Below are positions 413-19,552 of a stretch of DNA of 21,883 bases, one piece after another; within the stretch, counting starts at the first letter, position 1, and each line of letters begins with the position of its first letter. The DNA is from a virus. The position numbers were made by a program, and so were the translations under genes. The stretch covers positions 1 through 21,883 of the IMG/VR virus record IMGVR_UViG_3300025141_000881; one strand, written 5' to 3'. The notes below the pieces were generated by a model that worked only from the letters and a program-made list of their open reading frames with translations, was not told the origin of the DNA and ran no database searches.

Positions 413-756
413 CTTGGCTTGTCCTCCTGCAGGCCGGGGTCTTGGAGGCCGAAGACCAGAAGGACTTCGTAGACACCTACGCCTTTCTGGTTGACGAAAA
501 GGAGGAGGACCGAGAGCTTTGGCACCTGAACGAGCCCGGTTCGACCATGAAGCCGATCTGTGGAGTCGTCGGGGAGCCCCGCTTTGCGGGCTGCTATTAC
601 GAAGACGAGCGTGTGGCCCTGTGCCCCGCCTGCTGCCGCATCCACAAAGAGAAGAGCCCCCCGAAAGAGCAAGTCTCTCGGGAGGCCCCAGGGGAAAAAC
701 CCGTCGCGCCGACCCAAGTGGGGGGACACAGGGCGCGTGACAAGCGACGGAGATGA
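409..756 (+). CDS. Small Cys-rich hypothetical protein, possible zinc binder
   Basis: The 115-residue protein starts at the ATG overlapping the previous stop. The N-terminal 40 residues are acidic and hydrophobic. A Cys cluster (C51, C62, then CPACC at 72-76, followed by H79) could bind zinc. The last 35 residues are a low-complexity basic and proline-rich tail ending in DKRRR. It repeats the EDQK motif of the gene at 1-215. The helicase frame is also open across its 3' half, but the helicase start at 761 with its own ribosome binding site makes this a separate gene. Function unknown; a nucleic-acid-binding role would be a guess. Confidence 0.55.
   Translation: MTWLVLLQAGVLEAEDQKDFVDTYAFLVDEKEEDRELWHLNEPGSTMKPICGVVGEPRFAGCYYEDERVALCPACCRIHKEKSPPKEQVSREAPGEKPVAPTQVGGHRARDKRRR
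451..469 (+). repeat. 19-base direct repeat, copy 2
   Basis: This matches 141-159 at 18 of 19 bases; the one difference (A for T) breaks the perfect inverted repeat of the first copy. It lies inside the Cys-rich gene at 409-756 and encodes EDQKDF. Confidence 0.55.
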
Positions 757-760
757 AAGA

Positions 761-2071
761 ATGCTAGCACCGGACCTCCTGTCCAGCAACCGAGGGAGCG
801 AGCGCGCGCTGCTGTCGCTCATGCTCACCGACGAGGACGCAATCCACGAAGCCCTCGGCTTGGGGCTGCAGCCCGATCACCTGAACGACCCGGGGCACAG
901 AGCCCTTCTTCGGGGGATCGCAGACGACCTAAAGCGCGGGGTGAGCCCCGACGAGGCCACCCTGTATGACCGGTTTTGCGGCGAGTGCGGGATGGGCAAG
1001 CCCTGGGACAGCCTAATGTCTCTGACGATCTGCCTGGAGCAGGTGGCCGACACCCGAGCCCTACGAGGCAACCTGAAGGCCTACGTCGAGAATGTCTTAG
1101 AGGCTACCCGACGAAGGCAGGTTGTGGAGTCAGCTCGCAGGCTCCTGGCCATGGCCGACAGCAAAAGATCCACGGACGCGCTAGTCGAGGAGACGCAGAG
1201 GGCTGCCATCCGAGCCGACCAAACCCGAGCCGTCGAGCAAGACCTACCCAGCATGGCTCAGATTGCCCAGCAGGCCTGCGACCGAGCCGTTGCAGTGGCC
1301 AGCGGCGAAGCAAGCGACACCATAGTGCCCCTGGGATTGCTCGACCTCGATAAGAAGTTCGCAGCCCGGAAGGGAGACTACATCCTGGTGGGTGCCCGAC
1401 CGTCGATGGGTAAGACCCACTTCATGCTTTCGATCATGGAACAGATCGCCAGGAAGTCTGGGCCGGTCCAGTTCCACAGCATCGAGATGAGGTCCAGAGC
1501 CCTCGGAGACCGGCTTTTTGCACACGACGCAACCGGTCCCTGGGCCACGAGTGTGAAAACGGCACAGGCGTCCTCTAGGGCTGTCATGCGGCGATGGGGG
1601 GACCTCCCCATCCGAGTCGATACGAAGGGCAGAAGCCTGGGACAGGTTCTCTCTTCGCTCCGGGTGGCGAAGCAGAAGTCTGGGATCATCGCAGCGGGCA
1701 TCGACTACCTGCAGCTAATGCGGCTCCCCCGAGCCGGAAGCCGAGAGCAGGAGGTCGCTACAGCCAGCCGCGAGCTGGCGGCCCTGGCATCCGAGCTAGA
1801 CATCGTCCTCTTCGTCCTGTGCCAGCTCAATCGACAACTGGAGCAGAGACCCGTGAACGACCGACGACCCCGAATGTCAGACCTACGGGAGTCGGGGCAG
1901 CTTGAGCAAGACGCAGACGGCATCCTTTTCCTCTTCCGAGATGCCGCCTACAACCCCAACAGCAAGACCCCCGAAGTCTTAGAGGTTGGGATTGCGAAAC
2001 AGAGAAACGGAAGAGCCCCCAGAACCGCCTTCTGCCGGTACGTCCCCGGAGACGGTTTCGTAACCAACTAA
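761..2071 (+). CDS. dnaB: Replicative DNA helicase, DnaB family
   Basis: This is a hexameric 5'-3' replicative helicase that unwinds the phage replication fork using ATP. The 436 residues are close to the size of E. coli DnaB (471). A DnaB N-terminal helical domain spans about residues 10-110 and a RecA-like ATPase domain about 185-436. Visible motifs are Walker A GARPSMGKT (211-219), a catalytic Glu in HSIEM (E242), Walker B IDYLQLM (314-320), QLNR (355-358), the DLRESG stretch (374-379) and KQRNG (413-417), whose Lys and Arg correspond to the ATP-sensing residues of the neighbouring subunit in DnaB. The start at 761 has GGAG at 749-752 upstream. The frame is open further 5' (GTG at 737), but that would overlap the preceding gene. 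No primase or polymerase gene is in the window. Confidence 0.93.
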   Translation: MLAPDLLSSNRGSERALLSLMLTDEDAIHEALGLGLQPDHLNDPGHRALLRGIADDLKRGVSPDEATLYDRFCGECGMGKPWDSLMSLTICLEQVADTRALRGNLKAYVENVLEATRRRQVVESARRLLAMADSKRSTDALVEETQRAAIRADQTRAVEQDLPSMAQIAQQACDRAVAVASGEASDTIVPLGLLDLDKKFAARKGDYILVGARPSMGKTHFMLSIMEQIARKSGPVQFHSIEMRSRALGDRLFAHDATGPWATSVKTAQASSRAVMRRWGDLPIRVDTKGRSLGQVLSSLRVAKQKSGIIAAGIDYLQLMRLPRAGSREQEVATASRELAALASELDIVLFVLCQLNRQLEQRPVNDRRPRMSDLRESGQLEQDADGILFLFRDAAYNPNSKTPEVLEVGIAKQRNGRAPRTAFCRYVPGDGFVTN

Positions 2072-2072
2072 C

Positions 2073-2077
2073 GGAGA
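2073..2077 (+). promoter_or_regulatory. Ribosome binding site of the mini-ORF at 2083
   Basis: GGAGA lies 5 bases before the ATG at 2083. It is much better than anything directly upstream of the methyltransferase ATG at 2133, so ribosomes probably enter here and reach the methyltransferase by coupling through the mini-ORF. Confidence 0.5.
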
Positions 2078-2082
2078 ACAGA

Positions 2083-2136
2083 ATGAGCGCAACGAACCGA
2101 TCCGCAGTGCGTCACGCAGACCGGGGCAGCCCATGA
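2083..2136 (+). CDS. 17-residue mini-ORF, possible leader of the methyltransferase
   Basis: A 17-codon reading frame (MSATNRSAVRHADRGSP) sits between the helicase and methyltransferase genes. It has a good ribosome binding site, and its stop TGA at 2134-2136 overlaps the methyltransferase start (ATGA). The peptide is basic and resembles nothing I know. The arrangement is what a leader for translational coupling looks like: ribosomes finishing it would restart on the methyltransferase. It could also be a chance open frame. No attenuator-like codon run is present. Confidence 0.35.
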   Translation: MSATNRSAVRHADRGSP

Positions 2137-3392
2137 GGGTCTGGGACATCCAGCAAGGCGACTGCATGGATCTGCTGCGCGCTCTGCCTGACAACTGCAT
2201 CGATGCCATCGTCACCGATCCGCCCTACGGTCTGAGCCCAGACGGCAAGGCCCGCACCTGGGACGACATCGAGGACGGGAAGGCTCGCGGTGGCTTCATG
2301 GGCAAGGGCTGGGACGCTGCCGTGCCTGGCGTGACCTGGGCGCGCGAGTGTCTGAGGGTCTGCAAACCGGGTTCTTGGATCGTCGCATTCGGCGGACAGA
2401 GGACTATTCATAGATTGATCTGCGGGCTGGAGGATGCCGGGTGGGAGATCCGCGACCTGGGCGCACACCAGCAGTGGCAAGGCTTCCCAAAATCGCTCTC
2501 GGTCGGCAAGGCAATTGACGCGCACCACGGCGCAGGGCGTGAGGTGGTGGGGCCTAACCCAAACAGTCGCCCGAACTCAGCAGGAAAGGTGCGCCCCGTC
2601 TGGTCTGTGCGAGTAGATGCGCCCATCACAGCACCAGCCACCGACGACGCCCGCAAGTGGGAAGGCTACGGCACCGCGCTCAAGCCTTGCCTTGAGCCTT
2701 GGACCCTGGCCCGCAAGCCGCTAGATGGGACGGTCGCTGAAAACGTCCTCAAGTGGGGCACAGGCGCGCTCAATATCGACGGGTGCAGGTACGGGTACGG
2801 CGATCCGGCGTGGCCTGGGCCGGGGGACGGCGACACAAAGCGCACAAGCAACGCCGGGACCAGCGGCGACGGCTGGAGAATGGGCACCACCGCGAACATA
2901 AACGGAGGATCGCCCCTAGGCCGATGGCCCGCCAACGTCTACGCCTGCCCGAAGGCATCCAGGGGCGAGCGTGAGGCGGGCTGCGGGCACCTCAAGGGCA
3001 AAGACCGCGTTGAGCTTACTGGAAGGGAGCCGGGATCTGCTGGCCTGGTCGGCTCAGACGGATCAGGGAACAATCCCTACACCGGAGCCAACTGGAAGAA
3101 CCTAACGCGCAACTATCACCCCACCGTGAAGCCTGCCGCGCTCATGGCTTGGCTATGCAGGCTCGTGGCTGGTCAACCCGGCAGCCTGATCCTAGACCCC
3201 TTCGCGGGCAGCGGCACCACCGGGATCGCAGCCTTGCGCGAGGGCTTCAGGTTCCTAGGCTTCGAGCTGGATCCCGACTACATCGAGATCGCAGAGGCCC
3301 GGATCAACGGGGACGCGCCGCTCTTCAACCGCCGGGGCGACCCTACGCCAGCACCCACTAATGCCTGCACAGAGGGGACAACAGCGACATGA
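2133..3392 (+). CDS. Site-specific DNA methyltransferase, beta class (N6-adenine or N4-cytosine)
   Basis: This enzyme transfers a methyl group from S-adenosylmethionine to DNA. The catalytic motif DPPY (residues 29-32) is near the N-terminus and the cofactor-binding motif DPFAGSG (355-361) is near the C-terminus. That order defines the beta class, and DPPY is more usual for adenine-N6 enzymes. The N-terminal GDC...L..LPD...D.IVTDPPYG pattern, the GFPKSL stretch and the HPTVKP...L box before motif I are typical of the family. The long middle part should hold target recognition. At 419 residues it is full length, with a Thr/Pro-rich tail. No restriction gene is adjacent, so it is best read as an orphan phage methyltransferase that may protect phage DNA from host restriction. 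It is coupled to the mini-ORF upstream and by ATGA to the gene downstream. Confidence 0.93.
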   Translation: MRVWDIQQGDCMDLLRALPDNCIDAIVTDPPYGLSPDGKARTWDDIEDGKARGGFMGKGWDAAVPGVTWARECLRVCKPGSWIVAFGGQRTIHRLICGLEDAGWEIRDLGAHQQWQGFPKSLSVGKAIDAHHGAGREVVGPNPNSRPNSAGKVRPVWSVRVDAPITAPATDDARKWEGYGTALKPCLEPWTLARKPLDGTVAENVLKWGTGALNIDGCRYGYGDPAWPGPGDGDTKRTSNAGTSGDGWRMGTTANINGGSPLGRWPANVYACPKASRGEREAGCGHLKGKDRVELTGREPGSAGLVGSDGSGNNPYTGANWKNLTRNYHPTVKPAALMAWLCRLVAGQPGSLILDPFAGSGTTGIAALREGFRFLGFELDPDYIEIAEARINGDAPLFNRRGDPTPAPTNACTEGTTAT

Positions 3393-3637
3393 ACAAACCC
3401 GAACCGCCTCTGTCCTTCCGAGGCATCTTTGCCGAAGCGATCTACGAGCGGATCATTGACCACACTCTCTGCCACTGCTGTGGAGGAGAGATTCACAAAA
3501 ACACCCAGTGGGGATGCCTAGGGGACGCTGTCAGACGAGACCGGAGGGGAGCCCAAGTCCGCTTCATCCGTCTCTGCGAGACCTGTTTCCGGGTGCCTCA
3601 CGACGCGATGCAAGAAATGGAGTGGGCATGGGAATGA
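3389..3637 (+). CDS. Small zinc-ribbon-like protein
   Basis: The 82-residue protein starts at the ATG overlapping the methyltransferase stop. Two CxxC knuckles (C28/C31 in a CHCC run, and C63/C66 in CETC) about 32 residues apart are the spacing of a zinc ribbon. An acidic, Trp-containing tail follows (MEWAWE). I do not recognise the family. A small zinc-binding accessory protein of the replication block is plausible, but no target can be named. The gene ends in an ATGA overlap with the next one. Confidence 0.6.
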   Translation: MNKPEPPLSFRGIFAEAIYERIIDHTLCHCCGGEIHKNTQWGCLGDAVRRDRRGAQVRFIRLCETCFRVPHDAMQEMEWAWE

Positions 3638-3885
3638 ATCTGCTGCAGTACCCGGGACAGCTCTTGTCCCGCCTCACAGGTAGAACGAACCCGCTGGGGA
3701 GATGCTCCAGATGGGGATGCCTGCTGCCCGTTGGAAAGGGTTCAGAGTTTGGCAGCGGACCCGTCTGCATCGTCTGCACCCACAACCTGAGACCCATTGA
3801 GTTCCCTAAACACCGAGGAGAACCATCGTGCACTACACCACCCGACACAGGGATCGAAAGTTCCTGCTCACCAACAGCGCTCTAG
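3634..3885 (+). CDS. Small Cys-rich protein, possible zinc finger
   Basis: The predicted 83-residue protein starts at 3634, where ATGA overlaps the previous stop; ATG at 3628 is an alternative. Four cysteines (C24, C29, C45, C48 in CIVC) could form one zinc site. The last 19 codons run through the start of the nuclease gene (58-base overlap). That overlap is longer than usual here and the Ser/Thr/Pro-rich tail looks less conserved, so the real functional part may end near residue 60. No homolog is recognised. Confidence 0.45.
   Translation: MNLLQYPGQLLSRLTGRTNPLGRCSRWGCLLPVGKGSEFGSGPVCIVCTHNLRPIEFPKHRGEPSCTTPPDTGIESSCSPTAL
3815..3820 (+). promoter_or_regulatory. Ribosome binding site setting a GTG start for the nuclease
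   Basis: GAGGAG lies 7 bases before the GTG at 3828. It fixes that GTG as the nuclease start although it is inside the preceding frame. Confidence 0.6.
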
Positions 3886-4790
3886 CTCGGCTCCGATCCT
3901 GTGAGCGCAAACACTACCTTCGCGACATCGCCGGCCTCGTTAGTCGATTCAAGAGCGCCGCGATGGGCACCGGCTCAGCCTTCCACATTGGCATCCTAGA
4001 GCAAAGCCCTCTGGCCGCAGCCCAATGTCTTAGGGGATCTGAAGAGGTCCCGTGGCCCGAGGGGGCTGTAGACGAGGCATTGGAGGAGCGCTGCCTGGTT
4101 GTCGAGGCGATGGTCGCTGCCGCCCTGAAAAAGTGGACAGATTGGCCTGAGAAGCGAGAGATCCCGTTTCGCCTTCCCGTCTTCAGCCTCAAGAACTACC
4201 CAAGCCACAACTACGACATGGCGGGAGTGGTCGATGGCTGGCCCTCGGACAACCCGATGAGCCACTGGCACGACAAGATTGGAGAGTGGAAGACGACGGG
4301 TCGGCTGAGCAGCAATTACCTGCTGGGCCTACAGACCCGGTCTCAGCCGACTGCCTACTGCTATGCGGCATCCGTGCTGCTGGGCAGGCCGATCCGAACC
4401 GTCGTCTACCGAATCGTTCAGCGCCCCACGATCAAGCGTCGAACGAAGCGACAGCCAGAGAGCCTGGAGGAGTACGCCAACCGGCTCTCCACCTACTATG
4501 ACGAGCGACCTGAGCTTCTTTTTGAGGAGCAAGTGACCCGAACAGACCACCAGATCCTTGAGTGGCAGGCTGAGATGTTCGAGGCATCTAAGAGAGCCCA
4601 CGAAATCCGGCGAGGCGACCGCTTCCCCATTATGAACGACGCCGCTTGCGTCACGTTTGGGAAGTGTTCCTACCTCGACCTTTGCGCCCGCAGCGTCACA
4701 GAAGAGGCCTACGACGTGGCCACCGACCCCCACCCCGAGATAACTGCTGCAATGAATGCAGCGAATGCAATGAATGGAGAGACCAAATGA
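3828..4790 (+). CDS. PD-(D/E)XK exonuclease, RecB/Cas4-like with probable Fe-S cluster
   Basis: The 320-residue protein starts at GTG with a strong ribosome binding site. The nuclease core is visible: His in GTGSAFH (H53), Asp in the GVVDG stretch (D136), the E-x-K pair in GEWK (E153, K155) and the QxxxY motif (Q173, Y177). These are the metal-binding and catalytic residues of RecB/Cas4/RecE-type nucleases. One N-terminal cysteine (C25) and three C-terminal ones (C274, C280, C286; the last two in KCSYLDLC) match the split four-cysteine arrangement that holds a 4Fe-4S staple in AddB and Cas4 proteins. The likely role is resection of phage DNA ends to give 3' single strands for the ATPase encoded next, with which it overlaps by ATGA. 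No cas1, cas2 or helicase partner is adjacent, so a CRISPR role is not supported. Confidence 0.85.
   Translation: MHYTTRHRDRKFLLTNSALARLRSCERKHYLRDIAGLVSRFKSAAMGTGSAFHIGILEQSPLAAAQCLRGSEEVPWPEGAVDEALEERCLVVEAMVAAALKKWTDWPEKREIPFRLPVFSLKNYPSHNYDMAGVVDGWPSDNPMSHWHDKIGEWKTTGRLSSNYLLGLQTRSQPTAYCYAASVLLGRPIRTVVYRIVQRPTIKRRTKRQPESLEEYANRLSTYYDERPELLFEEQVTRTDHQILEWQAEMFEASKRAHEIRRGDRFPIMNDAACVTFGKCSYLDLCARSVTEEAYDVATDPHPEITAAMNAANAMNGETK
4749..4776 (+). repeat. Short direct repeat at the nuclease 3' end
   Basis: GCAATGAATG occurs at 4749-4758 and again at 4767-4776, with a related GCGAATG between. It encodes the Ala/Asn/Met-rich end of the nuclease and brings five out-of-frame ATG triplets just before the next gene's start at 4787. 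Replication slippage in a non-essential tail would explain it. Confidence 0.5.
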
Positions 4791-5557
4791 CCCAGAACCT
4801 TCTGCCGAAGGGGCGACACAAGCCCCGCTCGTCCATCCTGGCGAGCCGACACATGATCCAGGGCCTCCCGAAGGTCGGAAAGACCACCTTTGCGAACTCC
4901 TGGCCGAAGCCACTCTTTTTGGCTACCGAGCCCGGAACCCATCTTCTTCAGGCTGCCGAAACCGAAATCAATAGCTGGGATAACCCGGGCGGATCTGGCG
5001 GCTTCATCCAAGTCCTCGATCAGCTCGCCGCTCTCGACCACCCCTATGAGACGATCATTCTCGACACTGTGGACAACCTCTACTCCCGATGCCAGGAACA
5101 CGTTTGTCAGGAGCTAGGCGTTACCCACGTCTCGGACAAGCCCTACAAGGGCTGGGACATCCTGAAAAGCACCTGGACCAAGGGGATCCACCGACTGGCG
5201 TCTCTGCGCGCCCGAGGCAACAGAAGCCTCTGCTCCGTGTTCATCGGTCACACCAAGCTAGATCCGATCAAGGAAAAGAGGGGATCAGGGATTGTCGATA
5301 CCGGCCTTCACCTTCATCGTTCAGCCCTTCCGCCCGCTGCACGAGGCATCCTGCACTCCGCAATGGACTTCCTCTACGGGGTGGAGGTCGAAGACAACGG
5401 AACCCGCTGGCTGATCACTCAGCCCACTCAAACGAAGTATGCCCGCTACGAATGCGGATCCCGGGGCGAGCCTGGAAGAATGCTCCCCGAGCGGATCCCC
5501 ATGAACTACGCAGCCCTATCCACCGCATTTGAAGAAACGTTTGGAGAGAAGAAATGA
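4787..5557 (+). CDS. Sak4-like RecA-fold ATPase (single-strand annealing / recombinase)
   Basis: The 256-residue protein starts at ATG overlapping the nuclease stop, with GGAGAG 5 bases upstream; the frame is open further 5' but that stretch lies under the nuclease gene. Walker A is GLPKVGKTT (26-34), Walker B is TIILDT (89-94), and a sensor-like Gly-His (IGHTK) lies at 153-157. This is the AAA_24/Sak4 pattern: a minimal RecA core found in phages, where it promotes annealing of single strands together with a phage SSB. The neighbours fit this closely, with an exonuclease before it and an SSB-like protein directly after it (ATGA overlap). A general RecA-like ATPase of unknown role is the fallback. 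Confidence 0.82.
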   Translation: MTQNLLPKGRHKPRSSILASRHMIQGLPKVGKTTFANSWPKPLFLATEPGTHLLQAAETEINSWDNPGGSGGFIQVLDQLAALDHPYETIILDTVDNLYSRCQEHVCQELGVTHVSDKPYKGWDILKSTWTKGIHRLASLRARGNRSLCSVFIGHTKLDPIKEKRGSGIVDTGLHLHRSALPPAARGILHSAMDFLYGVEVEDNGTRWLITQPTQTKYARYECGSRGEPGRMLPERIPMNYAALSTAFEETFGEKK

Positions 5558-6045
5558 GCTACTGGGATACCGCTAACACCGACGGAGCCGCGTCAAGATT
5601 CCCCTCCATGGACCCCACTATCCCCCCGGGCTTCTACACCTGCGAGGTCGTTGATTTCTTCGTCCACTACCGTGAGGAAGAGAGCGAGTGGTCTTGCAAG
5701 TGGACCATGCAAATCCTAGACGGGGCACAGCAGGGCAAGTTCTTGGTGCGCTGGGCGACAATGGTCCCAGAGAAGGCCCCCAACAACGCAGAGATTTTCA
5801 TGCACACGATGGGAAGCCTCCCCCCGTTCGACCCCGACCACGGCTTTGCGGACGTGGAGGCGGTCAAGCAGGCAACGCTCAACGCAGTGGTCAAGGTCAA
5901 GGTGGAGGCGTGGGCGAAGGCAAAGGCCGGAATCGTTGCCCACATAAACGGCTCTGTGAAGACCGGGGGGCCGAAGGACGCGAGTGCCCCTACGCAATCC
6001 GAGGCAGTTGCAGACTTCTCCGAGGAAGAGATCATTCCATTCTAG
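5554..6045 (+). CDS. Single-stranded DNA-binding-like protein (DUF669 type)
   Basis: The 163-residue protein should coat single-stranded DNA. The body (about 20-135) is a beta-rich, Pro-Gly-Phe-Tyr start followed by alternating hydrophobic strands, similar in pattern to the DUF669 phage proteins found beside recombination genes. A disordered Ser/Pro/Thr linker leads to the acidic tip DFSEEEIIPF (154-163), which closely mimics the DDIPF tip that bacterial SSBs use to recruit partners. The start overlaps the ATPase stop, and Sak4 ATPases are known to work with phage SSBs. It lacks a recognisable canonical OB-fold signature, so the assignment rests on the tip, size and place. Confidence 0.75.
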   Translation: MSYWDTANTDGAASRFPSMDPTIPPGFYTCEVVDFFVHYREEESEWSCKWTMQILDGAQQGKFLVRWATMVPEKAPNNAEIFMHTMGSLPPFDPDHGFADVEAVKQATLNAVVKVKVEAWAKAKAGIVAHINGSVKTGGPKDASAPTQSEAVADFSEEEIIPF

Positions 6046-6091
6046 CTGGGCCGTCTCCGTAAGAAAGCCGCTTTTCTTGTCCCCGGCCCAG
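6046..6091 (+). terminator. Bipartite stem-loop after the SSB-like gene, possible terminator
   Basis: Starting at the base after the TAG stop, CTGGGCC (6046-6052) pairs perfectly with GGCCCAG (6085-6091). Inside it AAGAAA (6061-6066) pairs with TTTCTT (6073-6078) around a short GC-rich loop. There is no T-run after the outer stem, so this is not a classic intrinsic terminator; a processing or stability element at the end of the early operon is equally possible. Confidence 0.45.
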
Positions 6092-6121
6092 CAGCGGTCA
6101 AACGCTTTGGGGGGCACGAAT

Positions 6122-6136
6122 GCAGCGCTAGGCTGC
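6122..6136 (+). repeat. Small inverted repeat in the 6046-6210 gap
   Basis: GCAGC (6122-6126) pairs with GCTGC (6132-6136) across a 5-base loop. Alone it is unremarkable; it matters as the second of three hairpins in a row in the only sizeable non-coding stretch of the window. Confidence 0.35.
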
Positions 6137-6151
6137 GGTCTCGGGCCAAAA

Positions 6152-6174
6152 CCCCTTCCTGCAAAAAGGAGGGG
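6152..6174 (+). promoter_or_regulatory. Hairpin enclosing an AGGAGG sequence upstream of the resolvase
   Basis: CCCCTTC (6152-6158) pairs with GGAGGGG (6168-6174) (one G-T pair) around a 9-base A-rich loop. The 3' arm includes part of AAGGAGG, a perfect anti-16S match that has no ATG, GTG or TTG at the right distance; the resolvase instead uses GGAG at 6201. Read on the other strand the hairpin is followed by TTTT, so it could also stop leftward late transcripts that run past 6671. Neither role is shown. Confidence 0.35.
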
Positions 6175-6200
6175 GACGAGACCATCAAACTTCCAGCACC

Positions 6201-6204
6201 GGAG
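6201..6204 (+). promoter_or_regulatory. Ribosome binding site of the resolvase GTG start
   Basis: GGAG lies 6 bases before the GTG at 6211. That start places the first catalytic Asp at residue 7, as in RuvC proteins. Confidence 0.55.
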
Positions 6205-6210
6205 AACCCC

Positions 6211-6696
6211 GTGATCCTAATCGGCATCGACCCCGGGCCAGAGAAATGCGGCTTCGTCGTCTACGACGGCGCTGCCGGCAAGGTACAGGTCGCCCTCAAC
6301 GGCATACCGGTCGAGGAGACCCTAAAGGCAATCGAGCGGTACTGCCTGAAAGCGGAAGTCGTCGCCATCGAGCGCGTCCAGAGCTACGGCATCGCCGGCT
6401 CCTCGCTGCTTCGCACGTCGGAAGTGGTGGGGAGGCTGTGGCAGCACACCGAAAAGTTCTCGGTTCCGGTGCGGCTCGTCTATCGCCGTGAGGTGCTTCG
6501 GGCCCTGGATGTCACCGGCAGGGGCTCACGGGATGCCCTGGTGCGCCAGAGGATCATCGAGATCCACGGAGGAACCCGGCAGACCGCCGTGGGCACAAAG
6601 AAGGCTCCTGGTCCGTGCTATGGGGTCTCTGGGCACGCTTGGGCGGCGCTAGCAGTTGCCCTGGCCCACGTCAGTAGTGCAGGTTCATCCGGGTGA
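6211..6696 (+). CDS. ruvC: RuvC-family Holliday junction resolvase
   Basis: The 161-residue protein has the RNase H-like fold of RuvC and should cut four-way junctions made during phage recombination and replication, leaving a packageable genome. Visible are GIDPG with the first catalytic Asp (D7), VAIERVQ with the catalytic Glu (E54), and the closing helix GHAWAALAVALAH. In Thermus RuvC the catalytic set is Asp, Glu, His and Asp; here H142 fits the His position, but the last Asp is replaced by Ala (A145). The enzyme might be weakened, or use another acid such as D108. The start is GTG at 6211. It follows a 165-base structured gap rather than overlapping its neighbour, and its 3' end overlaps the convergent late gene by 26 bases. 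Confidence 0.82.
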   Translation: MILIGIDPGPEKCGFVVYDGAAGKVQVALNGIPVEETLKAIERYCLKAEVVAIERVQSYGIAGSSLLRTSEVVGRLWQHTEKFSVPVRLVYRREVLRALDVTGRGSRDALVRQRIIEIHGGTRQTAVGTKKAPGPCYGVSGHAWAALAVALAHVSSAGSSG

Positions 6697-8756: not shown

Positions 8757-8936
8757 CTAGTCCCCAGAGTCGTCATCGCTCGCGCTATCGTCGTCGCCTG
8801 CACTGTCGTCATCTTGGACGCTGTCGTCATCGTCCGCCGGGTCCGGCACGCCCTGGAAAAGGGCCGCCAGGATCAGGGCAGCGCACAGCACGACGCACCC
8901 TCCCACCGTGATCGCCTGTCGCCTACGTCTCGTCAT
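8757..8936 (-). CDS. Asp-rich small membrane protein
   Basis: The start at ATG 8936 is chosen because GAGGG lies 6 bases upstream; a TTG at 8957 would add seven residues. The 59-residue protein has a strongly basic N-terminus (TRRRRQ), one membrane helix (about 9-28) and a C-terminal tail that is almost only Asp, Ser, Ala and Gly (34-59), built from repeats of DDDS. The basic side should stay in the cytoplasm and the acidic tail in the periplasm. Similar DDDS runs are frequent in myxobacterial and related lipoproteins, which is a weak host hint. A holin-modulating role is possible by location only. It overlaps the endolysin gene by 14 bases. Confidence 0.6.
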   Translation of the reverse strand: MTRRRRQAITVGGCVVLCAALILAALFQGVPDPADDDDSVQDDDSAGDDDSASDDDSGD

Positions 8937-9351
8937 CGTCAACCCTCGTGAGTTCAAAGTGGGGCAAGTCCATGAACGATTGATCTCGGAGCCCGTCGCC
9001 CCTGGTCATCGCATCGCCGTCCCAGTCGCCCCCCCATCTGAGCCGGTCCACGATGCCGAGACCAGCGGCAACGCCGAAGACGAAGCCGGCGAAGTGCCGC
9101 ATCCTCTCCTGACCTTGCGCCGACCAGTCAATGGGATTGCAGGGGACTACATCCACGGCCCAGCCCTTGAGGTGCTTGCTGTTGAGCGTCTTGCTCTTCC
9201 CCGTCCGCACAAGCTCTCGCTGCCGCTCAGGGGACCGGATGCCCTCAAGGATTGAGCAGTCATAGTGGTCGATCACCTCGAAGAAGAGCCGTTGGAGGTC
9301 CTCGTGGACCGTGAGGAGCCGGTCGAGACTCGCCTTGCTGAACTTGGGCAT
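8923..9351 (-). CDS. Endolysin, M15-family (VanY / L-alanyl-D-glutamate) peptidase
   Basis: The 142-residue enzyme should cut the peptide stems of peptidoglycan at lysis. Zinc ligands are visible in the family pattern: H60 and D67 in SKHLKGWAVDV, and H131 in PHFEL, with an acidic residue (D128) close by. The GIRSPERQ stretch (37-44) is the substrate-side motif of M15 peptidases such as the T5 endolysin. There is no signal peptide or separate wall-binding domain, so it needs a holin to reach the wall. GAGGTG precedes the ATG at 9351. Genes for small membrane proteins flank it on both sides. Confidence 0.88.
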   Translation of the reverse strand: MPKFSKASLDRLLTVHEDLQRLFFEVIDHYDCSILEGIRSPERQRELVRTGKSKTLNSKHLKGWAVDVVPCNPIDWSAQGQERMRHFAGFVFGVAAGLGIVDRLRWGGDWDGDAMTRGDGLRDQSFMDLPHFELTRVDDDET

Positions 9352-13800: not shown

Positions 13801-14990
13801 TACCGCACTTGTTCAAGGAGCAGATCGGCAGTGATGTAGGCGGACGCTGAACCCGCAAACGAATCTAGGGAGTAGTCCTGCAGCCCGCACCACAGTAGGA
13901 ACCCCTTATCTGCCTCGTCGTCAGCATCTCTGGTGGAATCCGTGATTTCATCCCACCGAAGGGCCCAAAGAAGCGCAGTAGCCTTTCCCTCCCTTACAAC
14001 AGGCGTAACGACAGAGCGAAAGTCGCTAGCTAGCCAGTTGTCAAAGGAGAGTGGCGTTCTCCACCGAATGAGTCCCTGAGATGGGTAGTAGGACTTCACA
14101 TTGATCGGGGCGGTCTCATCCACAAGTCCGTGGTTGGAGACCTCAGCCACTTGCCGAGTAGACGACGCCTTCTTTTGAAGCAGCTTCACGATCCCAACAG
14201 CATGAAAGGGATCAATGTCAAAGTAGCGCCAGGAAAACGCCCAGTACCTATAGCTCATGGACGCGCCACCAGAGTCATAGGCGACCTGAATCTTGTTCTC
14301 GTCCTCCCCCGGGCGGTCAGTAAAGGTCAGCGTCTTGGCTGCGTTGTCAACCCAGTCCTTCACATCTGTCGCACTAAGGGGCGAAGCGTTGGCAAACATG
14401 CGGACCAGGGAGGATGACGTGTTGAAGGAAACGCTGTCCCCCCCATCCAGTATCGTCGCAGCGACATCTGCAGAGAGGGTGGACCCTAGATCAAAAAAGG
14501 CCCAGTGGTCGGTTCCGTAGCGTCGGTAAATGCCGCTGTAAGAGGATGCCCCGCTAGAGTCTGTCGAGTTGGAAAACCCTAGCCACTTGTAGGGCTGGTT
14601 GGTGCCGTCTGTACCGGTACTCCAAAGGATACTGAATGTGCTGCTGGCTTCGATCTTGAACCTGTGATCTATGGTGTAGGTGACGGTGTACGAAAGGCTG
14701 GTAAGTGGGGTGTTGTTGAGCGTTTGCTCAAGATCAAGCGCAAGCCCCGGCCCCGAACCGGCGAAGTGGCTGAGCTTTACACGAAGCTCGCCGCCCCCCT
14801 CGTTCACGTCAAGGTACTGCCCAGAGTCAAGTGCAAAGTATCCATAGGGAGGCGTTTGCCACACCACCCTTGGGCGGTCATTCAGGCAGTTGACAAAGGG
14901 CGCACCCGGTCGCTCCCCGAAGGGGCCAATCGTATGGCCGGTATCGTCTGCGCCCAGCCGGTCGCCAATGAAAAATGCCGTGAACCCCAT
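13800..14990 (-). CDS. Tail protein directly after the tape measure, distal-tail-like (396 aa)
   Basis: The ATG at 14990 follows the tape measure stop with no gap. The protein is beta-rich with many Ser, Thr, Trp and Tyr residues (YRYWAFSWRYFDIDPF at 246-261) and no membrane segment. A Ser-rich middle (about 110-200) and a C-terminal part (SDFRSVVTPVVREGKATALLWALRWDEI) alternate strands. In siphophages this position holds the distal tail protein or a tail-tip component. I do not recognise the family and infer the role only from gene order. Confidence 0.6.
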   Translation of the reverse strand: MGFTAFFIGDRLGADDTGHTIGPFGERPGAPFVNCLNDRPRVVWQTPPYGYFALDSGQYLDVNEGGGELRVKLSHFAGSGPGLALDLEQTLNNTPLTSLSYTVTYTIDHRFKIEASSTFSILWSTGTDGTNQPYKWLGFSNSTDSSGASSYSGIYRRYGTDHWAFFDLGSTLSADVAATILDGGDSVSFNTSSSLVRMFANASPLSATDVKDWVDNAAKTLTFTDRPGEDENKIQVAYDSGGASMSYRYWAFSWRYFDIDPFHAVGIVKLLQKKASSTRQVAEVSNHGLVDETAPINVKSYYPSQGLIRWRTPLSFDNWLASDFRSVVTPVVREGKATALLWALRWDEITDSTRDADDEADKGFLLWCGLQDYSLDSFAGSASAYITADLLLEQVR

Positions 14991-17261
14991 CTACTTAGCC
15001 ATTCCGTAACCCACGCGCCGCTGGTAGCCCAGCCCGCGCTCCTGTGATCGTATTAGGTGGTTGTCAACCGTCTGCCCGAGTACGTGACCATCGATCTCCA
15101 GAGTGGTGTTCACCACTACCGGGTCGTTGGCCCCCCTACCCCCGATCTGCTGCTGAAGCATTTGGCTGATCGCGCGAGTGCCGACTGGATCCAGCACCAT
15201 CTCGTCCTTGCCAACGGCAAGTACGGTGTGGTTGTTCAGGCCCGCAGCCCTGAGCGCACCGGGGGGAAGCCCCGCGTCTGCCATGCCGGCGATGCCAGCA
15301 ATCGTAGTGGCTGCAATAGTGGCGATCTGAGCGCCACCCAGCACGCCAGCAGCCACTCCCTGCGGGATGGTATAGGGGACGCCAGGTGGGTTCGCCAGCG
15401 CGGCAGAAACGCTCTGTGCCGTAGTAACAATGGCAGACGCCAGGGCGAGACCCTGTGTTATAGCAAACACAACATGCGCCGCCTTTTTCGCCTCCTGGCT
15501 TTCCTCCCCGTAAACGGCAGAGATGGCCTCAGCCATGCCGGCAGCAACATCGGAAATGGCCCCCATGATGGCGACTGCGTTATCGACTTGCTGCTGCTTA
15601 TAGTCGGCCAACATCTCTATCCGCGCCGCGTTATCCTCTTTTTCCTTCTCCAGCTCTTCAGCCCGAAGCTGTTCGATCTTCTTTGAGGTCAGCGTCTCGA
15701 TTAGAAGATCCTGCTCAGTCCTAGCGAGGTGGGCCTTGCGAGCCCTCTCTCCTATCTCGCCCAGCCTGCGCTCCCTCTCCTCCGCGTCAAAAACCTTGGA
15801 GTTGGTAATAAACGTGGCCTGCTCCACCAGCATCTTCTGCAGCTCGTCGAACTCGGCCTTCACCCTCTCCTTGTCGAACATCTGCTCTGTCAGGAGGAGG
15901 TCGATGCCCTCCTTTCCGAATAGCTCGATCTCCTCTTTGAGGCCCCTGATGCCCTGCTGCATCGACTCGTAGGCCTGCCTCCACTTCTTGATCAGTCTGT
16001 CCAGCGCGGCCACCTGGCGGTCGAGTGCGTTGGTAGCGCCCCCTGTCTTCTTCCTGTTCTCCTCAAGCATGCCGAGGGCCTTCTTATACGCATCGCCCAA
16101 CGCCTTTAGTTCATCCGACAGCGTCTTCTGGGAAGCCGCTGCCTTGTCTGTTGCCGCAGATACTCCCAACGTCCGGTCGCCCAGTCGCGCCAAACGGTCA
16201 TAGGCAGCGCCAAAGTCAAACAACCCCTCAAGGTTGTACAGCTCCGCTGTTTGTCCCAACACCCGTTCGAGGTCTTCAATCTTCCCAATTTCAAGGCCAA
16301 CAAGGGCGGCGACATCCTTGATCATCCCGATGAACTGGCTTCCCCCCTCGATGAACGCTCCAATCACCTTTCCAAACATCTCCCCCCAGAAGACAAAAAG
16401 CCCAACCGAGGCCATTACCGCCTTGCTGAGCCCCCCCGACCACTCACTCCAGTCCCCGGCAGCAACCATCTCTCGAAGCTGCAGCTTGGTGGCAATGATC
16501 ACGGGAAGGAACTCGTTTGCGATCTCTAACTTTGCGCCCCGAATCGCAAACTCAAGATCAACGGTGGAGTCGTGATACAGCTCAGATACATTTAGGAGGT
16601 CGGTGCCCATGACGGCACCAAGATCCTTGGCAACCTCCAGATACTCGGCTAGCCCCTCGGATCCGTTGGCCATGAGGTTGGCCATCTCGGTGCCCGCACG
16701 CCCAAGCAGAAGCATGGAAGCGCCGGTTCGCTCCGCCGATGGGCCCATGGACGCAAAGCGATCCGAAAGGTCGGAAAAGACATCGAAACTGTCTCGGAGG
16801 GTCCCGTCCTGCTTTTTCAGCGTGATGTCTAGGGCAGCAAACGTCTCCTTGATCTGCCTAGAGCCGTTCTGCGCGTCGAGCATGACGCGACCCAGCTTCT
16901 TGAGGCCATGTGCAATAGCAGTGATTGAGACGCCTGATCGCTCAGCGGCAAACTCCAACCCCTGGTACTGCTCCGCAGTGATTCCCACCATCCGCCCCTG
17001 CTTGGCGATGGTGTTCCCCAGTTCCCCGATGGCTGTGGTTGACGAGATGGCAATGTTGGCAACCCTGTCAAGCGCACTCCTGAACAGGTTCGCCGCAGTT
17101 GTGATCCCCACAAATGCGAGGGTGCCCTTGACCATGGAGGAGGTAATGGTCTTGCCGGACTTCTTGGTTTTCTTTCCGGTCTCTTTGGCCTCAATCCCCA
17201 CGTCTTTTAGGGCCTTGATCGCGTCCTTTGCGTCCCCCTTGACTCTGAGTGTGAGTGCCAT
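14991..17261 (-). CDS. Tail tape measure protein
   Basis: The 756-residue protein should set tail length and be ejected ahead of the DNA. It starts with a basic, amphipathic region (5-45: VKGDAKDAIKAL, KKTKKSGKT) common in tape measures. A long helical part runs to about 560, with hydrophobic segments near 45-60, 279-305 and 590-660 (VVFAITQGLALASAIVTTA; AAGVLGGAQIATIAATTIAG) and coiled-coil stretches at about 375-545. The end carries the GLNNHTVLAVGKDEMVLDP-like motif (674-692) often seen at tape measure C-termini. By the rule of roughly 0.15 nm per residue, the tail would be about 110 nm. Its place directly after the frameshifted chaperones is diagnostic. Confidence 0.9.
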   Translation of the reverse strand: MALTLRVKGDAKDAIKALKDVGIEAKETGKKTKKSGKTITSSMVKGTLAFVGITTAANLFRSALDRVANIAISSTTAIGELGNTIAKQGRMVGITAEQYQGLEFAAERSGVSITAIAHGLKKLGRVMLDAQNGSRQIKETFAALDITLKKQDGTLRDSFDVFSDLSDRFASMGPSAERTGASMLLLGRAGTEMANLMANGSEGLAEYLEVAKDLGAVMGTDLLNVSELYHDSTVDLEFAIRGAKLEIANEFLPVIIATKLQLREMVAAGDWSEWSGGLSKAVMASVGLFVFWGEMFGKVIGAFIEGGSQFIGMIKDVAALVGLEIGKIEDLERVLGQTAELYNLEGLFDFGAAYDRLARLGDRTLGVSAATDKAAASQKTLSDELKALGDAYKKALGMLEENRKKTGGATNALDRQVAALDRLIKKWRQAYESMQQGIRGLKEEIELFGKEGIDLLLTEQMFDKERVKAEFDELQKMLVEQATFITNSKVFDAEERERRLGEIGERARKAHLARTEQDLLIETLTSKKIEQLRAEELEKEKEDNAARIEMLADYKQQQVDNAVAIMGAISDVAAGMAEAISAVYGEESQEAKKAAHVVFAITQGLALASAIVTTAQSVSAALANPPGVPYTIPQGVAAGVLGGAQIATIAATTIAGIAGMADAGLPPGALRAAGLNNHTVLAVGKDEMVLDPVGTRAISQMLQQQIGGRGANDPVVVNTTLEIDGHVLGQTVDNHLIRSQERGLGYQRRVGYGMAK

Positions 17262-17264
17262 TGT

Positions 17265-18130
17265 CTAACCCCGTCTTTTTGCGCGTTCTGTCGCGCGCTC
17301 TGTGCGGTAAGCGCGCACAAGTGCAGCTTCCGACTCGATAATCCCGATGGCGTCAAGAATACGCGAGGGCTGCTCTGCGAGCGACCCCGGATTCGGGAGC
17401 CCACCGAACACGCTCCACGCATGCCAGTAGTTGATGGCTCCCCACATCCACTCTTCGCACGCATCCATTGGGCAGCGATCTAGCCTGCGGTCTGCGGCAC
17501 CAACTCCGGGGGGTCGGCCCTTTGGCATCAGAACAGGGGTGCGGAACCGGGATCTGCCCGCCTCATCGGGATCCCCGTCGCGACATCGAGTCCCCTTGCA
17601 GGAGCCCCAGAGCTTGCAGCCGTTCCATCCCTGCTCCGCGAAGTAGTCTGCCTGGTCGGGCAGGATCTCGTTTCGGGCCACGTACTGGTAGGCAGCCCTT
17701 AGTCTTTTCCCTCTTCCGCACTCACCGATCCCTCTTGGACGATGTGACGAACCAGATCGGCAGCCGGACCCTCCAGGGTGACGAGCGCATCCACCAGGGT
17801 CTCGGGAGAGGGGGACTCTCCGTCGATTGTGAGTTCTCGGCATCCCGTAACCAGATCCAGCAGCATCTCGCGCTGGAAGTTGATCAGCGAGCGCATCGCC
17901 TCGGCGTGCGACTCCACAAGCTCCTCTATCTGCTCCTCGGAGAGGCCCTCTGGGTCCTCCACGAGGGCTGCCCCACCCTGGACCTTCCCTATTGCTTTCT
18001 GAAGGCGTAGAGAGACTTCTAGGTGCTTTGCGCGCCAACCCTGGGTCATGGGTCGATAGAGGATGTAGGCTTTTTCGCCCTCTTCGTCCGTCAGTTCGTA
18101 CTCTCGGACGTTCCATTTGTTCAATTCCAC
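17265..18130 (-). CDS. Tail assembly chaperone G-T fusion made by -1 frameshift
   Basis: If the ribosome slips at GGGAAAA (17711 to 17705), the first 142 residues of the G-like protein continue in the -1 frame for 146 residues, giving 288. The added part has no good start of its own, and its frame upstream of the slip site is only a shadow. It contains five cysteines (positions 30, 36, 41, 78, 83 of the extension, the last two in CPMDAC) that could bind zinc, then an aromatic stretch (EEWMWGAINYWHAW), a Pro-Gly turn and a charged helix. In lambda the G-T protein bridges tape measure and tail tube during assembly. The fusion ends three bases before the tape measure gene. Confidence 0.8.
17675..17698 (-). 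other. Possible stimulatory hairpin downstream of the slippery site
   Basis: On the transcript, GGGC starts 6 bases after the heptamer (17698-17695) and pairs with GCCC (17678-17675). With two G-T pairs and one more GC pair the stem reaches 7 base pairs around a 10-base loop. The distance is right for a frameshift stimulator, but the stem is modest. Confidence 0.35.
17699..18130 (-). CDS. Tail assembly chaperone, G-like (143 aa, zero-frame product)
   Basis: GTG start at 18130, with GGGAG 7 bases upstream. The acidic, mostly helical 143-residue protein begins with a short beta part (WNVREYELTDEEGEKAYILYRP) and continues with helices (EGLSEEQIEELVESHAEAM). Length, acidity, position between tail tube and tape measure, and the slippery heptamer 5 codons before its end all match lambda gpG-type chaperones. 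These coat the tape measure and are absent from the finished virion. The zero-frame product should be the more abundant of the two. Confidence 0.82.
   Translation of the reverse strand: MELNKWNVREYELTDEEGEKAYILYRPMTQGWRAKHLEVSLRLQKAIGKVQGGAALVEDPEGLSEEQIEELVESHAEAMRSLINFQREMLLDLVTGCRELTIDGESPSPETLVDALVTLEGPAADLVRHIVQEGSVSAEEGKD
17705..17711 (-). other. Programmed -1 ribosomal frameshift site GGGAAAA
   Basis: In the zero frame the codons read GAG GGA AAA GAC TAA. G GGA AAA fits X XXY YYZ exactly (X = G, Y = A), and both tRNAs can re-pair one base back as GGG AAA. The lambda G/T site is GGGAAAG. After the slip the reading continues AGA CTA AGG into a 146-codon open frame that ends next to the tape measure. 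Confidence 0.85.
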
Positions 18131-18160: not shown

Positions 18161-19552
18161 TTAGCCGATCATGATGTAAATCTCGTCCTCGCTGGAAGTG
18201 CCGAGGGCTCTGCCGGTGAGGCCAATAGTCACCTCGTCGGCACCCCGATCCATGTCGGGCTCCTCCATGTAGAAGTTGGGAAGCTCGATGCCAAAGACTG
18301 CGCCCTCGCTCTCTCCCTGCTGCGCGTGAACCGACACAGAGGTGCGAGCGCGGGCCTCCATGGCGCGAACCATGGTGGAGTCGTAAAAGCTCCACCCGTC
18401 CATGGTGGCGGTGACGTTGCGCTTGCCGCCAACGTACCCATCCACAACGTACGTGCTTCCCATGACGTTCTCCCGGTAGACGATTCCTTGGTCAATCTCG
18501 ACCGAGACCGTTCCCGCCTGAAGCACTGCGCCAGCCACGAGTAGCTGCCCCGAGGTCGCCGGAATCGGGGTGCCGGCGTAGGTGCCCGAGGGCTGGTAGG
18601 GATAGAACTGTGACCCGTCAGCGTGGGTTGCAGCGCCGCCCCCAAGTCCCGTACTTCCACGGGTCGCAACGGTAACAGTGTTCCCACTGACCCCCGTCAC
18701 CCTGAAGACCTCGCTATCGATCTGGTAATAGAAAGGAAGGGACGAAGACGTGTCTGCTGGCAGCGCCGTCCCGTCCGTTACGGTAAACGTCGTGTCCGAG
18801 GTGTTGAGGGTGCCGCCATGGTTCAGCGTAGTCTGCACCATCCGGTTGTCCTGTCGGCCCGTTCCGCTAACCGTCATCCGAGCCGCCTCGTCGCCCCCCA
18901 TCGAAACGGACTGGCTACCACTCACTGCGCCGACAATCCGGTCGGCACTGTTGTTGTTGAATGCCCAGAGCGTCACGGAATCGGGGGTGGTGTCCTTGGC
19001 GTCCTTGGGCTTGTAGATGATTGCCGAAAGGATGTTGGCCCCAGAGGCGGGCGTGTTCTGCAGGGCTGGAGAGACGGTGAAGCTGGTCATTGCGCTCAGA
19101 TCCGTGATGCGACGGATCTCGTAAGCGCCCGTAGCAAGCCCCGTTTCAAAAATCGCAGCGTCACCCACGGTCCAGTTGGTTGTGTCCGCAGTGGTGATCA
19201 CGGTGGTGGTTCCGCCCGTGGCAGTGGTTGCGTCTCCGCCCCCCACCGTTTCCTGCCATCCCCCGTAGGTGAGGATGTCTGCCCAGTCAGGCGCAGTTCC
19301 CCGGGCGGTGAGATAGGCGTAGCACTCCAGGCTGAACTCGGCGGTTCGCTTCTGGTCGATGATCCCCAGCTCACTGGACGTGCCCCGCTTGTCCTCAAAT
19401 GTGGCAAAGGGGCTCTTTCCGTTGACCGACGCGGTAAGCACGCGAAGCGCATCGGCGGCAACCGGGTAGTCCGTTGCGGCAGACTTGAAGGTGGTCTGCG
19501 GATCCACAAAGACCACAAGGTCTCTTCCGATATCAGTTGAGGGGCCGGTCAT
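18161..19552 (-). CDS. Major tail tube protein
   Basis: The 463-residue protein should polymerise into the tail tube. It has the best ribosome binding site of the window, as expected for the most abundant tail protein. The N-terminal part (DIGRDLVVFVDPQ; then strands to about 90, with EFSLECYAYLTARG) and the C-terminal part (VDGYVGGKRNVTATMDGW, GIELPNFYMEEPDMDRGADEVTIGLTGRAL) follow the tail tube pattern of two halves of a beta-sandwich with a closing strand motif. The middle (about 105-340) is a long Thr/Gly/Ser-rich insertion, probably surface-exposed, which makes it larger than typical tubes. It lies directly before the chaperone pair, as in lambda-type tails. Confidence 0.8.
   Translation of the reverse strand: MTGPSTDIGRDLVVFVDPQTTFKSAATDYPVAADALRVLTASVNGKSPFATFEDKRGTSSELGIIDQKRTAEFSLECYAYLTARGTAPDWADILTYGGWQETVGGGDATTATGGTTTVITTADTTNWTVGDAAIFETGLATGAYEIRRITDLSAMTSFTVSPALQNTPASGANILSAIIYKPKDAKDTTPDSVTLWAFNNNSADRIVGAVSGSQSVSMGGDEAARMTVSGTGRQDNRMVQTTLNHGGTLNTSDTTFTVTDGTALPADTSSSLPFYYQIDSEVFRVTGVSGNTVTVATRGSTGLGGGAATHADGSQFYPYQPSGTYAGTPIPATSGQLLVAGAVLQAGTVSVEIDQGIVYRENVMGSTYVVDGYVGGKRNVTATMDGWSFYDSTMVRAMEARARTSVSVHAQQGESEGAVFGIELPNFYMEEPDMDRGADEVTIGLTGRALGTSSEDEIYIMIG

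Follow-up and report, generated by a model that had tools for sequence, protein, structure and literature searches.

A conserved slippery heptamer and a very probable −1 frameshift between two putative tail assembly chaperone frames of an uncultured tailed virus

The stretch of DNA analysed here (the window) is a 21,883-nt contig of an uncultured tailed virus, in which a 463-aa ORF, a G-like ORF, a T-like frame and the tape measure gene follow each other in this order on the minus strand. The 463-aa ORF (minus strand, 18161..19552) lies directly upstream of G. A counterpart of 461–490 aa occupies the same place at all 25 related loci examined, and 14 proteins from this position align at 39–74% identity. 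No match that identifies the ORF (19552-18161) was obtained in profile searches, and it is assigned, by position only, as the probable major tail (tube) protein. The G-like ORF (minus strand, 18130-17699) starts with GTG, ends with the TAA at 17701-17699 and encodes 143 aa, the normal unshifted product. Behind it, the T-like region (minus strand, 17265..17705) is read in the −1 frame and ends with the TAG at 17267-17265, which is separated by three bases (ACA) from the ATG of the tape measure gene at 17261. The tape measure gene (minus strand, 14991..17261) encodes 756 aa, and in profile searches this ORF (17261-14991) matches PHROG tape measure families with E values down to 4e-25; the gene holds the same position in the relatives.

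The 3′ end of the G ORF reads GAG GGA AAA GAC TAA. The slippery heptamer G GGA AAA (minus strand, 17711-17705), which is conserved in the relatives, is separated from the TAA by a single codon (GAC), and its first G occupies codon position 3. Slipping back by one base would turn the reading into GGG AAA AGA CTA AGG and so on, with 146 sense codons past the Lys codon. The predicted GT fusion (minus strand, 17265..18130) has 288 aa, with the junction ...EEGK-RLRAAY.... A sequence-only reading of this DNA had noticed the in-phase heptamer just before the TAA and 146 open −1 codons ending 3 bases short of the tape measure gene, and had deduced products of 143 and 288 residues; the coordinates bear out the first two points, and the recomputed ORF and fusion lengths agree with the third. 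In random codons drawn with the codon usage of the window, a strong in-phase heptamer is expected within six codons with p of about 0.0017, and ten minus-strand ORFs with 3358 codons contain only three in-phase XXXYYYZ sites (Y = A/T). Openness of the −1 frame alone is weak proof, since it extends over 295 codons that include the upstream side of the heptamer, and the case rests on conservation.

Relatives were collected by five scans of a viral collection, which yielded 31 contigs with a readable junction, ranging from two near-identical ones down to 35% identity in T. All 31 share the layout of G, heptamer and −1 frame. A one-base indel in a single contig would look identical to such a junction, and a sequencing or assembly error splitting one true ORF might be suspected. 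The break, however, falls at the same base in 31 contigs from many metagenomes, most of them 35–58% identical in T, and cultured phages (below) have the same layout; because independent contigs break alike, this explanation is excluded but for a vanishingly small probability. The heptamer is GGGAAAA in 26 of the 31 contigs and GGAAAAA in the other five (L019, L021, L049, L050 and L051), which agrees with the proposal that homologs would keep it. The variant replaces Gly by Glu in frame 0 and is silent in frame −1 (GGG to GGA). With GGAAAAA, full re-pairing is available only to the Lys tRNA, and re-pairing of the P-site tRNA is weakened. The tool PRFect lists a motif named 'twofive' (PMC10885494), which, as read from its name, fits GGAAAAA. 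In most relatives the frame-0 stop stands one codon past the heptamer, and in four (L017, L018, L020 and L022) it stands two codons further downstream with the heptamer unmoved.

The conserved reading frame changes at the heptamer. When the window was compared with five relatives, identity before the heptamer was 46–54% in frame 0 and 24–39% in frame −1, and after the heptamer it was 53–58% in frame −1 and 24–31% in frame 0. Over the T region, identity to relatives was 53–58% in the −1 frame vs. 23–32% in the other two frames, and the third codon positions are the most variable, in frame 0 before the heptamer and in frame −1 after it. Identity thus switches frames at this point, and the −1 frame is conserved solely after the heptamer, as had been anticipated from the sequence. 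Over the full length, the window GT is 55% identical to the fused products of two contigs (L006 and L007). Codon choice within the heptamer is frozen as well. Among 19 non-redundant sequences, every Gly at this site is encoded by GGA (18/18) and every Lys by AAA (19/19), and the preceding codon ends in G in all 19; over the same genes as a whole, GGA makes up 24% of Gly codons and AAA 22% of Lys codons. Only three of 43 conserved-residue columns use a single codon, and two of these are the heptamer codons; in the genes as a whole, codons for the same residue differ between pairs in a median 54% of cases.

The family extends to cultured phages through its T part. The window GT itself found no match in phage records, and the link runs solely via the T part of one divergent contig (L025), which matches gp28 of Rhodobacter phage RcZahn, annotated as 'tail assembly chaperone', with an E value of 4e-4. 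From gp28, further T relatives were reached in Rhodobacter, Rhizobium and Agrobacterium phages, and the named ones are RcZahn gp27/gp28, RcTiptonus gp42/gp43, RHph_TM16, RHph_I4, L338C and Agrobacterium phage JP1. A T profile from the contigs matches a T profile from the cultured phages with a probability of 96%, whereas the G parts of the two groups are hardly alike (hhalign probability 19%). At the seven loci read, one of which is cut inside T by the end of the record, the preceding ORF carries an in-phase A AAA AAC, G GGA AAC or A AAA AAG, and T follows this heptamer in the −1 frame; in RcTiptonus the heptamer stands 81 bases ahead of the stop. T precedes the tape measure gene, as in the window, wherever the record shows it. 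These phages resemble the window in T profile, −1 frame and heptamer, and differ from it in their G parts and in the separate annotation of G and T: in the stretches examined, none of the cultured-phage records annotates a joined G-T product, and the relatives are given as two genes, or T as a hypothetical protein, with internal starts in GenBank. Neither the fused protein nor the T profile found a match in sequenced bacterial and archaeal genomes. The Rhodobacter phage paper states that a tail chaperone frameshift is not clearly evident in RcZahn (PMC8601537). However, close to its 3′ end gp27 of RcZahn (MW677529.1) contains A AAA AAC in phase (L036:2809-2815), with gp28 in the −1 frame; RcZahn shares the −1 peptide KKLRLGV(M/A)AIRLM with RHph_TM16, and its −1 frame is conserved upstream of the annotated ATG. 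The heptamer and the peptide argue that RcZahn does have a frameshift.

Such annotations raise the question of whether T is a separate gene, with its own start inside or just after G and translated by coupled re-initiation, next to an incidental heptamer. Three observations would suit this arrangement: many loci have an open −1 frame ahead of the heptamer as well, a GTG stands in the window 30 bases past the first base of the heptamer, and GenBank gives T relatives internal starts. Yet in 27 of the 31 loci, the window included, the −1 frame lacks ATG, GTG and TTG over the interval between 60 bases upstream and 30 bases downstream of the heptamer, and the −1-frame start codons in the remaining four are not widely shared. 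Moreover, conservation of the −1 peptide begins at the heptamer itself (GKRLRAA), RHph_TM16 has an Ala where the annotated start Met of RcZahn stands, and the frozen heptamer codons also speak against a separate start. A search for homologs that lack the slippery site and start each part independently, as separate genes, found none. We consider a separate T gene very improbable.

Slippage of the polymerase rather than of the ribosome could also give a second product, if it took place on the A-run during transcription. Bacteria are known to show polymerase slippage (PMC5009743). Runs of 7 A are present in some T relatives, which would favor such a route. The A-run of the window, however, comprises only 4 consecutive A, presumably too short for strong transcriptional slippage, and conservation acts on a two-tRNA heptamer in codon phase rather than on a long homopolymer. 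This route seems even less likely than a separate start.

The sequence-only reading had also pointed to a possible hairpin 6 bases downstream of the heptamer. The hairpin exists (GGGCUGC-10 nt-GUGGCCC; minus strand, 17675..17698), with a 7 bp stem and a 10-nt loop, and it begins 6 nt 3′ of the heptamer, but shuffling the sequence gives structures of comparable strength (z −1.4 for 65 nt and z −0.55 for 45 nt), and it is not conserved. The RNAalifold consensus fold across the relatives predicted zero pairs, and the proposed stem could pair in 68.4% of cells vs. 69.0% after shuffling; the hairpin was rejected as a conserved stimulator on both grounds. No conserved stimulatory structure was found among the relatives. 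A stem of 6–7 bp occurs at the same place in five contigs (L019, L021, L023, L024 and L026) and may have a clade-specific role. Some 20 bases ahead of the heptamer lies a Shine-Dalgarno-like stretch, which a conserved EEG(S/T)V peptide explains equally well.

The conserved heptamer and the conservation of the −1 frame behind it support the lambda-style frameshift that the sequence-only reading had put forward, and a programmed −1 ribosomal frameshift that yields two tail-assembly chaperones from one start is, in our judgement, very probable. Most ribosomes would read G to the TAA and release the 143-aa product. At the heptamer, tRNA-Gly in the P site would be paired with GGA and tRNA-Lys in the A site with AAA, and in a small fraction of ribosomes both tRNAs would slip one base back and re-pair with GGG and AAA, after which translation would continue in the −1 frame to give the 288-aa GT. 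On the model of lambda, the G part would bind the tape measure protein, tail tube subunits would be recruited by the T part, and both would leave before the tail is completed. The layout, the heptamer and the switch of frame are read directly from the DNA; that ribosomes slip, how often they do so and what G and T bind are what we infer.

In phage lambda, the G/GT frameshift takes place at the heptamer GGGAAAG with a rate of a few percent. Lambda makes G and GT at a molar ratio of 30:1; the partner of the G part is the tape measure protein, and that of the T part is the tail tube subunit (PMC5009743). The window shares with lambda the two overlapping ORFs adjoining the tape measure gene, the second of them in the −1 frame, a short and a long product (predicted for the window), and a −1 shift site of the form G GGA AA(A/G) where the first ORF ends. 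The in-phase X XXY YYZ near the end of the first ORF is conserved, with GGAAAAA in five relatives, and the second ORF is coding only after the heptamer and lacks its own start, as is characteristic of the lambda class. Unlike lambda, the window has GGGAAAA instead of GGGAAAG, its T has four invariant Cys, and its G and T match no known chaperone family. A text search of papers on phage tail frameshifts did not find GGGAAAA. A frameshift of the lambda G/GT type would be a mechanism of a known kind; the G/T protein family itself appears to be new.

Neither G nor T matched any Pfam, PHROG or NCBIfam family in profile searches, which places them, as judged by sequence, in no described family, their class being assigned by mechanism and position only. 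Since no known tail chaperone model matches, the names 'G' and 'T' likewise rest on position and mechanism. The predicted model of G has a pLDDT of 80. In a Foldseek search with it, HK97 gp14 (2ob9) ranked 4 and 8, the match at rank 4 being weak (E 0.5, probability 0.38), and a second fold comparison returned only common helical arrangements, with 2ob9 not among the 50 rows shown. The HK97 tail assembly chaperone gene has what we take to be the same genome position as G, whereas the fold match between the two proteins is not significant and sequence similarity was not found. Fold searches with T gave nothing significant, and the Cys region of its model has a pLDDT of around 50. Four Cys of T (window 17268-17705; residues 30, 36, 41 and 78) are invariant in 19 T proteins, and a similar set of four is conserved in the T of cultured phages, with the last Cys in a CP motif. 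These four residues may hold a metal, a guess made from the sequence. It seems to us an even choice whether G and T form an undescribed chaperone family that spans uncultured viruses and large alphaproteobacterial siphophages, with a four-Cys, possibly metal-binding module in T, and in which one clade has swapped the two-tRNA site GGGAAAA for GGAAAAA, re-paired mainly by the Lys tRNA.

With this locus, a textbook recoding site gains a sequence family that lies outside the profile libraries. The approximately 30 contigs form a clean test set: the slippery site is retained although its surroundings, the position of the stop and the hairpin vary. Gene callers split such genes, as the annotations of the cultured phages show.

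Several further features were observed in the window and its relatives. A second strong in-phase heptamer, GGGAAAG, is found at 13989 on the minus strand, within an ORF (14990-13800) that follows the tape measure gene. The search with the tape measure gene also led to regions of Paracoccus phage Shpa and RcapNL. A protein resembling peptidase M15 (Pfam PF13539, E 2e-7), possibly an endolysin, is encoded on the minus strand at 8923-9351. The plus strand, opposite to the tail genes, carries replication and recombination genes at 560-6696, namely those for a DnaB-like helicase, a DNA methyltransferase, a PD-(D/E)XK exonuclease, an AAA ATPase and a Holliday junction resolvase.
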